A stretch of 22,896 nucleotides of DNA from a virus, in the IMG/VR virus record IMGVR_UViG_3300010318_000058, positions 1 through 22,896 of that record; one strand, written 5' to 3'. Under the pieces are notes generated by a model. That model did no database searches. It was not told the origin of the DNA and worked only from the letters and a program-made list of their open reading frames with translations. The translations under genes were made by a program, and so were the position numbers. This document shows positions 20,428-22,896 of this stretch, piece by piece. Numbering within the stretch: the first letter of the stretch is position 1; the number at the start of each line of letters is the position of its first letter.

Positions 20428-21609
20428 ATGTCATTTGTATTATTAGATAGTAAAGATTGGTGTAAAGGTATTTACGAAAAAGGAAATTTGCATTTTGAAA
20501 AAATGCCAACAGACTTATCATCAACATGGAAATATTCTCCATGTTTGAGTGATAGAGAAGTTGTCTATGCCTCATTATATGCCCAAGGAAGAAGCATAGA
20601 TGAAGTATGTCCTTTATCATTAAAGCAAGAGTGGGATTCCAGAAAGCAGAAACTTTCTGCTTTTCATAAATCATTTAAGAAAGCAAAAATTGATTTAAAT
20701 CAAACATGTTTTTATGACTTAGTTCCACAGCAATTTTTGTTAGAACTTTGCGAAACAAAAACAAAGATAATAGATCACGTTATAGAAACTTTTGAAAAAC
20801 CAAAAAATTATGATTTGCTACTTGAAACTGAAAAAGTAATAGAACAAATATCTAATCAAAAATTGAACATAGATCTATCTTTGTTACTGCAGGAAGTTCA
20901 TAAAAACAGGACAAGAACAATCTTGCAAAGGTTGAATAAAGCATCGTTATATATAAAATATAATTTATTCGGCTCTAAAACAGGCAGATTAACAACAAGA
21001 ACTGGAACTTTTCCTATTTTAAATTTGGATAAAAATTATAAATCAATAATAAAGCCGGTAAATGATTTATTTATCGAATTAGATTTCAATGCAGCAGAAG
21101 TTAGAGTTCTATTAGGCCTTAGTGGAGAACAGCAGCCACAAGAAGATATCCACGAATGGAACGCTAAAAGGTTAGGATGTTCAAGAGAAGAAGCTAAAAG
21201 AGATATATTTGCATGGCTTTATGGTTCTAGTAAAGTTGAATCATCAAAGTTTGAAAGTTTATTTAATCTTAACAAAATAATGCAATCAAAATATGATGGT
21301 GATTATGTAGAAAGTTTATATGGAAGAAAAATAAAATCGGATTCTTTTCATAGTCTAAATTATTTAGTACAAAGTAGCACATCAGAATTGGTATTAGAAC
21401 AAATGATAAAAATAAATAAAATTTTAAAAAACAAAAAAAGTTTTATAAGTTTTATAGTGCATGATTCAATTGTGATAGATTTATCAAAAGAGGATAAAAG
21501 TTTGGTACAGGATTTAGTAGATACTTTTACTAAAACTAAACTAGGAGACTTTCCGGTTAATATTTCAATAGGAAAAGATTATGGAAATTTAAGGAAAATA
21601 AAATGTTAA
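20428..21609 (+). CDS. Family A DNA polymerase, polymerase domain only
   Basis: 393 residues; AAGGG stands just before the ATG. Pol I motifs in order: SKTGRLTTRTG (183-193); motif A IELDFNAAEVR with catalytic Asp219, Glu224 and Arg226; DIHEWNAKRLG; motif B REEAKRDIFAWLYG with Arg253, Lys257, Phe261, Tyr265 and Gly266 equivalent to R754/K758/F762/Y766/G767 of E. coli Pol I; NYLVQSSTSELVLEQM; and motif C IVHDSIVID with His345 and catalytic Asp346. Ser347 replaces the usual Glu of HDE. Both metal-binding Asp residues are present, so it should be active. Residues 1-150 carry no recognisable 3'-5' or 5'-3' exonuclease motifs (no DxE of ExoI or DEDD set), so proofreading would need another protein. 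The neighbours are a structural gene before and a MazG-like gene overlapping by 7 bases after. T4 uses a family B polymerase instead. Confidence 0.9.
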   Translation: MSFVLLDSKDWCKGIYEKGNLHFEKMPTDLSSTWKYSPCLSDREVVYASLYAQGRSIDEVCPLSLKQEWDSRKQKLSAFHKSFKKAKIDLNQTCFYDLVPQQFLLELCETKTKIIDHVIETFEKPKNYDLLLETEKVIEQISNQKLNIDLSLLLQEVHKNRTRTILQRLNKASLYIKYNLFGSKTGRLTTRTGTFPILNLDKNYKSIIKPVNDLFIELDFNAAEVRVLLGLSGEQQPQEDIHEWNAKRLGCSREEAKRDIFAWLYGSSKVESSKFESLFNLNKIMQSKYDGDYVESLYGRKIKSDSFHSLNYLVQSSTSELVLEQMIKINKILKNKKSFISFIVHDSIVIDLSKEDKSLVQDLVDTFTKTKLGDFPVNISIGKDYGNLRKIKC

Positions 21610-21920
21610 TAAGGGACAATGTTGGAAAAACTTTATCTGAAGCACTAAAGAATGTTCAAGATAAAGATTTTGAAATAATAAAATTGCAAACAAATCAAGA
21701 TTTTTTTGAAGCATTAATTAGCAAAATAAAAAGTGAGATAGAAATTCTAGAAAAAACAAAATCACTAGATAGTTTAGCAGAAATAATAGAGTTAGTTGAT
21801 TGGATCAATATTTCTCTAGGACTGACAAATGTTTCTAATCTAATAGAAAGTAGAGCAGAAAAATTAGGTTTGTATTGGGAAAAATATTATATTAAAGATA
21901 AAATAGGAAAACCTGAATGA
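21603..21920 (+). CDS. MazG-like / phosphoribosyl-ATP pyrophosphohydrolase-type protein
   Basis: 105 residues; the start overlaps the polymerase stop by 7 bases, with AAGG upstream. The layout LIRDNVGKTLSEAL, FFEALISKIKSEIEILEKTK, SLAEIIELVDWI and ESRAEKLGLYWEKYYI follows small phage and bacterial PRA-PH/MazG proteins ('K.vRD.i', 'L..KL.EE..E', 'eElaDvlEv', 'K....GgF...i.L'). These all-alpha enzymes hydrolyse (d)NTPs to monophosphates. The metal-binding pattern is degenerate: the first EExxE is seen as SEIEILE and the second EExxD as IELVD. Activity is therefore uncertain. Sharing a unit with a polymerase suggests a nucleotide-pool or ppGpp-type role, as proposed for other phage MazG proteins. 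It overlaps the next gene by ATGA. Confidence 0.6.
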   Translation: MLIRDNVGKTLSEALKNVQDKDFEIIKLQTNQDFFEALISKIKSEIEILEKTKSLDSLAEIIELVDWINISLGLTNVSNLIESRAEKLGLYWEKYYIKDKIGKPE

Positions 21921-22723
21921 TAAGCGTGATAGGTATTGGTAATACAGGATGCAAAATAGTAGATATACTTTCTGCATACAATTATTATCACGTATTTAAA
22001 ATCGATGAAGGTCTAAATATAAAAAAACAAAAAACTGCTGAAGAATATGAAAAGAAATGTCCTTCATTTAAAAAAAATTTTTCATCTTTTTCAGAAAAAG
22101 TATGTGTTTTTTTAAACTGTTCTGGAAATATTTCTGGCATTTCACTTAAAGTATTAAAGCAACTTAAAAATAAAGATTTAAATGTAATATGTATTATCAC
22201 AGATCCATCTCTTTTATCTACGACTGGAAAAATACATCAGAATCTTGTAAAAGGAGTCTTGCAAGAATACGCAAGATCTGGTTTGCTAAAAAAACTCTAT
22301 TTGATAGATAATCAATGCATAGAATCTTTAATAGGCGACGTTTCTCTTTCAGAATATTATCAAAAAATAAACGAAATAATAGCTTATACATTTCATACTA
22401 TGATGTTTTTTGAAAACACTAAGCCTCTTCTTTCTTCAAGAGAAGAAAAATCTGATATTTCAAGAATAAGCACATTTGGAATTTTAGATTCTCAAAGAAA
22501 TAAAAAACTTTTTTATAATATGAAAGAAGTTAGATTTGAAAAATATTATTATTCAAAATCAAAAAATGAAATAGAACAAAATAAAAAAATATTACAACAA
22601 ATAAAAGAAGATCTTGCAGAAGAAGAAAATATAAGTAAATCTTTTTCTATATTTGAATCTGAAACTCAAGATCAAAATACATACATAGAACTAACAACTC
22701 ACATAGTTCAGAATTCTGTATGA
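21917..22723 (+). CDS. Tubulin/FtsZ-like protein (diverged), unknown function
   Basis: 268 residues, starting in an ATGA overlap with the MazG-like gene. The protein opens with a Rossmann-type strand and glycine loop, ISVIGIGNTGCKIVDIL. Then comes VCVFLNCSGNISGISLKVLK (residues 62-81), at the place of the tubulin signature GGGTGTG loop; a strand VICIITDPS; a helix VKGVLQEYARSGLL; LYLIDNQCIESLIGD (127-141), like the FtsZ 'vIviPN..Ll' segment; and YYQKINEIIAYTFHTMMFF, like the helix H7 entry with its conserved Asn. The order and spacing suggest the GTPase domain of a tubulin/FtsZ relative without a clear NxDxxD T7 loop or full C-terminal domain. The last 60 residues are a Glu/Lys/Gln coiled-coil-like helix and an acidic tail. 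I recall similar sequences as conserved hypotheticals in marine T4-like phages. Fold by inference; function unknown. Confidence 0.5.
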   Translation: MISVIGIGNTGCKIVDILSAYNYYHVFKIDEGLNIKKQKTAEEYEKKCPSFKKNFSSFSEKVCVFLNCSGNISGISLKVLKQLKNKDLNVICIITDPSLLSTTGKIHQNLVKGVLQEYARSGLLKKLYLIDNQCIESLIGDVSLSEYYQKINEIIAYTFHTMMFFENTKPLLSSREEKSDISRISTFGILDSQRNKKLFYNMKEVRFEKYYYSKSKNEIEQNKKILQQIKEDLAEEENISKSFSIFESETQDQNTYIELTTHIVQNSV

Positions 22724-22738: not shown

Positions 22739-22767
22739 TTGACAAGTTAAACGATCTGTGCTAGAAT
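22739..22767 (+). promoter_or_regulatory. Strong sigma-70 type promoter
   Basis: TTGACA (22739-22744), a 17-base spacer, then TAGAAT (22762-22767), with TGC just before it giving an extended -10. The expected transcription start is about 22774. It lies in the 105-base gap after the tubulin-like gene and drives the probable ssDNA-binding protein gene, as an early or middle host-type promoter. Confidence 0.85.
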
Positions 22768-22828: not shown

Positions 22829-22896
22829 ATGGCTATTGATATTAGTAAAATGCGCAACAAATTGAATACCTTGAAAGGTAAAGGTGGACAACTAGC
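22829..22896 (+). CDS. 32: Probable single-stranded DNA-binding protein, gp32-like, N-terminal part
   Basis: Only 22 full codons are visible: MAIDISKMRNKLNTLKGK, then GGQL, before the window ends. The pattern 'MA.D.S..R.KL..L......' with a basic, Gly/Lys-rich continuation matches the N-terminus of many phage gp32-type proteins (B-domain, cooperative binding), which usually continue into a 'W.P..G...vRi.P' segment that is outside this window. The ribosome site GGAG-AAAAAACA-ATG and the strong promoter fit a highly expressed early gene. It probably opens the replication module. With so few residues the call is tentative. Confidence 0.55.
   Translation, partial: MAIDISKMRNKLNTLKGKGGQL

Follow-up and report, generated by a model that had tools for sequence, protein, structure and literature searches.

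A divergent, minimal protein with a predicted tubulin/FtsZ fold encoded beside a PolA-type DNA polymerase in gp23-bearing phages

Introduction

To our knowledge, the phage tubulins known to date, PhuZ and TubZ, are cytomotive and accessory. TubZ is a partition tubulin of plasmids and phages, while PhuZ is encoded by nucleus-forming jumbo phages and has as its hallmark a C-terminal helix H11 followed by an acidic tail. In FtsZ and tubulin, the guanine base is contacted by the Asn of loop T6 and by an Asn or Asp at the start of helix H7. CetZ, an archaeal cell protein, carries the canonical G-box. According to the available text of PMC10299810, PhuZ is dispensable and no more than 66.2% of the phages that encode chimallin have it, whereas the gene described here has the distribution of a core gene linked to a polymerase.

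Here we analyse a stretch of phage DNA, the window, which corresponds to an IMG/VR virus record of 22,896 bases. In the open-licence literature on phage tubulins (marine, T4-like, Far-T4 and polymerase contexts) we found no description of the family reported below, the available text of PMC10299810, PMC7162821, PMC7824862, PMC13282480, PMC4360716, PMC7198788 and PMC13037479 included. The words tubulin and FtsZ are absent from the main text of the three Far-T4 papers among these, and we found no open-licence paper joining "Far-T4" and "tubulin".

Results and Discussion

The Locus in the Window

Genes for a Gp23 capsid protein (match 3.8e-71) and a tail sheath, together with other tail and baseplate-like genes, lead into the following elements:

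20428..21609, + strand: PolA-type DNA polymerase, apparently limited to the polymerase domain (DNA_pol_A, 4.3e-12)
21603..21920, + strand: 105-aa ORF between the polymerase and tubulin-like genes, overlapping both
21917..22723, + strand: predicted tubulin/FtsZ-fold protein, 268 aa, ATG start, open frame (ORF list, predicted model, structural matches)
22739..22767, + strand: promoter-like site TTGACA-17-TAGAAT, between the tubulin-like gene and ssb
22829..22896, + strand: SSB (gp32-like) gene, of which the window contains only the start

The ORFs of the polymerase, the 105-aa protein and the tubulin-like protein overlap in succession, the last sharing 4 bp (ATGA) at its start with the ORF upstream. 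The promoter-like site is of the sigma-70 type and agrees with 11 of 12 consensus positions; the best such site scores at least 10/12 in 57 of 107 relatives, with a mean of 9.46 versus 8.22 in shuffles. Given its location between the tubulin-like gene and ssb, the latter may be the start of a separate transcription unit. The 105-aa ORF had been labelled MazG-like in the initial annotation, an identity that is not established; comparison with the remaining gap ORFs recovered just two relatives (E about 4e-5 and 8e-5).

The tubulin-like ORF is a real, conserved gene. The single window protein used as query recovered 10 loci, a nine-sequence alignment produced 44 relatives, and a 33-sequence alignment identified at least 551 relative-encoding stretches in IMG/VR among the 600 matches listed. 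Selection on the gene is purifying, the median dN/dS being 0.081 across 47 usable pairs; one pair, which involves L050, a duplicate on the same contig, reflects a frame artefact. Once 14 loci that were duplicates or unrelated had been set aside by hand, 116 contigs carry the gene, the window included. While environmental virus contigs thus hold relatives by the hundred, the phage collection gave no hit (0 in 50,697 phage records, searched with the protein or its alignment), and a single scan across 84,980 prokaryote genomes yielded 159 stretches fitting a pattern, none of which encodes a relative. Neither the protein nor its alignment gave a usable sequence match in Pfam, PHROGs, PDB sequences or cultured phages.

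Predicted Fold

Structure prediction points to the tubulin superfamily. An AlphaFold model of the window protein, built with a 33-sequence alignment, has a pLDDT of 91.3 and a pTM of 0.90, and a second model, of the homologue at locus L029 (33% identical, 83-sequence alignment), reaches 94.8 and 0.92. Against the PDB, Foldseek places FtsZ (4m8i) at the top for both (E 1.3e-11 and 4.4e-13). By VIA-align the closest structures are those of archaeal CetZ (PDB 3zid, 4b45, 4b46): the window model matches CetZ 3zid_B over 247 residues (Z 24.1, rmsd 2.8), followed by FtsZ 2r6r (23.3), CetZ2 4b45_A (23.3) and TubZ 4ei7_B (22.4), all full-length matches, and the second model gives CetZ (Z 25.1, rmsd 2.7, 256 residues), CetZ2 (24.2) and TubZ (23.5). 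All 50 displayed rows in each of the four structural lists obtained with the two models belong to the tubulin superfamily. The best neighbours of the window model in the viral library BFVD are two FtsZ-like proteins of uncultured phages, A0A6J5RW92 and A0A8S5UFG9 (E 2.0e-11 and 3.0e-8), which are 452 and 387 residues long and share 13% and 9% identity with the window protein.

In both models an N-terminal nucleotide domain, the core helix H7 and a C-terminal sheet domain are combined in one protein, and the elements follow the tubulin/FtsZ order (S1-H1-S2, S4-H4-S5-H5-S6-H6-H7, S7-S10, with names assigned in this analysis). Helices H8 and H9 are missing: in L029, H7 (154-173) leads through coil into S7 (191-197), and a hairpin takes the place of H9. 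The models stop a few residues after S10, leaving nothing that could form an H11 tail.

Profile comparison gives a fainter signal. Against six FtsZ sequences, hhalign aligned 159 columns and placed T1, T4, T6 and the beginning of H7 on their FtsZ counterparts (score 26.8, probability 3.7%); against seven PhuZ sequences it aligned 97 columns (score 33.3, probability 23.6%). Scores for seven further protein families encoded at these loci were 12.9-22.6. Alignment of a single PhuZ to the family profile fails (probability 0.1%). With probabilities this low, the profile result backs the fold match and would be insufficient alone. In the domain libraries all matches are sub-threshold: TrkA_N is the commonest in Pfam (13/83 members, best 6.8e-6), and Tubulin and FtsZ appear in 7/83 members each (Pfam, best 0.019; NCBIfam, best 0.0018). 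Both fall short of the PF00091 and TIGR00065 cut-offs, and PF00091 is above its cut-off in 0 of 7 records.

The two models place the protein in the tubulin/FtsZ fold superfamily, as a divergent and minimal member that constitutes its own predicted family. The initial annotation had proposed such a relationship, and had set as its check a top structural match to FtsZ, TubZ or PhuZ in which residues 6-11 and 67-74 align with the GTP site. FtsZ 4m8i is indeed the top Foldseek match, and the hhalign register with FtsZ agrees for the GTP site, albeit at a weak score. A plain Rossmann or ThiF fold, or no tubulin match at all, had been named as the refuting outcome, and the models instead contain H7 and a tubulin-type C-terminal domain. 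The proposed coiled-coil tail was mistaken, since in the models residues 207-261 fold into the strands and helices that make up part of the C-terminal domain.

Nucleotide Site

The landmarks of the protein are listed below; column counts refer to 83 representatives less than 85% identical, and those for T5, T6 and T7 depend on MAFFT placement.

21932..21952, + strand: T1 loop, residues 6-12, GIGNTGC (family GLGxAGC), from column counts
22046..22051, + strand: Tyr44-Glu45, a pair specific to the family and close to the degenerate T3 region, from the alignment
22118..22138, + strand: degenerate T4 signature loop, residues 68-74, from hhalign and row and column counts
22202..22204, + strand: T5 Asp96 (D in 75/83)
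22262..22279, + strand: family-specific invariant Q116, R120 and S121 at the end of helix H5 (83/83 each)
22310..22312, + strand: T6 Asn132, equivalent of the guanine-contacting Asn (78/83, hhalign register)
22346..22414, + strand: core helix H7, residues 144-166; Asn152 occupies the guanine position and His160 is invariant, from model, hhalign and column counts
22415..22465, + strand: T7 region, residues 167-183, without the N-x-D motif and without H8, from models and row and column counts
22466..22720, + strand: reduced C-terminal domain with S7-S10 and H10, a hairpin replacing H9, from models

The T1 loop is nearly invariant (G6 83/83, G8 83/83, G11 81/83, C12 82/83) and provides the GxGxxG/C motif after strand S1 expected of a superfamily member. 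Asn152 of H7, which hhalign aligns with the guanine position of FtsZ, is kept in 78/83 representatives. The canonical T4 box GGGTGTG occurs in 0/103 rows, a set that includes second loci of contigs already present (L050, perhaps others), and is replaced by a family box of G, S/A, G, any residue, I/V, S/T and G/A (family consensus G[SA]Gx[IV]SG); one family T4 pattern, matched by 76/103 rows, was too permissive and was left unused. Accepted PhuZ proteins likewise vary at this box. The catalytic N-x-D pattern of T7 was found in 0/103 rows. Besides these loops, the family has invariants of its own (L77, Q116, R120, S121 and H160, 83/83 each, with Y44-E45 nearly so), and the window protein is an outlier within it at C68, T95, T161 and M163. 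The motifs named in the initial annotation are all present (GIGNTG at 6-11, NCSGNISG at 67-74, IDN at 130-132 and an Asn-helix at 144-166 with N152), and the loss of the catalytic T7 motif that it described extends to all 103 rows.

Since T1 is retained along with the Asn residues of T6 and H7, the protein probably binds a guanine nucleotide, and because the T7 N-x-D, H8 and the canonical T4 and T3 are lost, it probably does so without classical hydrolysis. These are predictions, and the changes at T3 and T4 may mean that nucleotide binding has been lost as well.

Comparison with Described Tubulins

Set against its closest structural match, CetZ, the protein shows 14-16% identity, has lost the canonical T4 and T7 and has a shorter C-terminal domain; CetZ moreover belongs to archaeal cells, whereas the genes described here are those of phages with gp23 and lie in a replication setting. 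With FtsZ it shares the whole predicted fold, but lacks GGGTGTG, the N-x-D of T7, H8/H9, and the C-terminal linker and peptide. Like PhuZ it is a phage-encoded protein with a tubulin fold, and PhuZ gave the higher hhalign score of the two families tried. In contrast to PhuZ, however, there is no C-terminal H11 tail in the models, and the carriers are gp23 phages of about 113-204 kb in eight large records. TubZ, finally, matches both models (Z 22.4 and 23.5), yet differs from the present protein, which is shorter and without canonical T4 and T7.

Phage Lineage

Eight large records (112,740-203,859 bases) contain one tubulin-like copy each, and in all eight a Gp23 gene lies ~17-21 kb from it. 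When the phage collection was searched for similar capsids, the closest came from Flavobacterium phage immuto, RM378, Microcystis phage Mel-JY01 and two large uncultured phage records; RM378 is given as the reference Far-T4 phage in the available text of PMC4360716 and PMC7198788. The lineage is gp23-bearing, part of the T4 supergroup with the Far-T4 phages as nearest cultured relatives, and is seen here only in environmental contigs. Homologues of the tubulin-like protein were found in none of five Far-T4-type records (Mel-JY01, immuto, LR756508, LR756511, RM378), some of which have a more distant PolA. In Mel-JY01, immuto and LR756508 the interval between PolA and SSB holds another small family, HRKKxxNTxYTINxLN (L053 5867-6256, L054 1346-1801 and L148 5374-5763), which was not found in the tubulin-bearing loci.

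PolB was detected in 0/8 large records, with controls working, so a gp23 phage may here rely on a minimal PolA to replicate its genome. The shell protein (chimallin) of 201phi2-1 was likewise found in 0/8, in a search run without a positive control.

Linkage to Polymerase and SSB Genes

The setting beside a polymerase, noted initially for the window, proves far more general. The polymerase is the nearest annotated upstream neighbour in 86/87 contigs with more than 1 kb upstream, and SSB the nearest annotated downstream neighbour in 101/101 contigs with more than 1 kb downstream, where the families sought were polymerase, SSB, RecA, FEN and two structural families, so that other genes may intervene. 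The gap between polymerase and tubulin-like gene is at most 30 nt (overlaps included) in 51/86 cases, 280-410 nt in 27/86 and longer in 7/86. When loci were selected by the polymerase only, the tubulin-like gene lay downstream in 80/80 of those kept, a result that covers the closest 80 of 574 loci. Distances between tubulin-like proteins correlate with those between polymerases (0.79; 0.60 after removal of SSB and RecA, 58 loci), but linkage alone could also produce this correlation, and synteny and co-divergence are no proof of contact. ORFs fusing the tubulin-like protein to polymerase or SSB were not found among the loci. An apparent read-through in L096 was rejected: the TAG is a normal stop, and SSB follows in the same frame.

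Proposed Role and Alternatives

From the constant position beside the polymerase we infer a partner role with PolA. Our leading, still tentative, interpretation is that this is a nucleotide-binding, not classically hydrolysing family of the tubulin superfamily that acts as a core partner of a phage PolA-type polymerase. The protein would bind guanine nucleotide without classical hydrolysis and would most likely act as a nucleotide-switched scaffold, possibly a short or slow-turnover oligomer, by which the replication complex of the phage is held or positioned. The lack of the gene in the five Far-T4-type records counts against this interpretation. That relatives keep the polymerase/tubulin-like pair hints at a recruitment of the tubulin fold into viral DNA replication. 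In its most far-reaching form, which we regard as possible but doubtful, the fold would be a core replication part across a large lineage of environmental phages: a non-motile partner that binds GTP and serves the polymerase as scaffold or processivity factor, both proteins being produced jointly from overlapping frames.

Alternatively, the protein might polymerise with GTP into a cytomotive filament like those of PhuZ and TubZ, positioning phage DNA or capsids, the polymerase link being a matter of gene order only. The full-length structural match to TubZ, FtsZ and CetZ, the retention of T1 and the guanine-pocket Asn, and the deviation of accepted PhuZ proteins at the canonical T4 box are all compatible with such a filament; nevertheless, the N-x-D of T7 is missing from every row, H8/H9 and any H11-type tail after S10 are missing, and the link to the polymerase is constant, unlike the patchy occurrence of PhuZ (only 66.2% of chimallin-encoding phages in the available text of PMC10299810), which makes it rather unlikely. 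A late assembly or packaging function would suit a gene located at the end of the structural block, where the capsid, tail and baseplate-like genes of the window run into polA and the tubulin-like gene, and within ~17-21 kb of gp23 in the eight large records. Yet its immediate neighbours on both sides are replication genes, and the promoter-like site, which may open the next unit, comes only after it, so we consider this improbable. A dead FtsZ mimic that blocks host division by using its one intact face to cap the filaments of host FtsZ seems quite improbable too. In its favour, the nucleotide-side longitudinal face is better kept than the T7 side, but accessory host-takeover genes are not typically so placed, so constant or co-diverging with a polymerase as this gene between polymerase and SSB. 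We give scarcely any credence to a plain Rossmann nucleotide-binding protein of the TrkA-N or dehydrogenase type, which the commonest weak Pfam match would suggest and which was already disfavoured by H7 and the tubulin-type C-terminal domain of the models and by the uniform composition of the four structural lists.

The predicted tubulin fold is without canonical catalytic loops and is nonetheless retained wherever the polymerase was sampled, that is, in the closest 80 of 574 loci. If the partner role is true, the superfamily would extend beyond cytoskeletons, and the capacity of its fold to serve DNA replication would become directly testable. The family also gives a warning that sequence libraries miss such proteins or point to TrkA_N.

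Other Genes in the Intervals

Some intervals of these loci contain further ORFs, named here by eye. Thioesterase-like and nucleotidyltransferase-like ORFs lie between the polymerase and the tubulin-like gene in L001 (754-2381). Between ssb and recA, L029 (7816-10162) carries a ParB/methylase-like pair and an FKBP-type ORF, and an FKBP-type ORF is also present in L009 (2398-2832).
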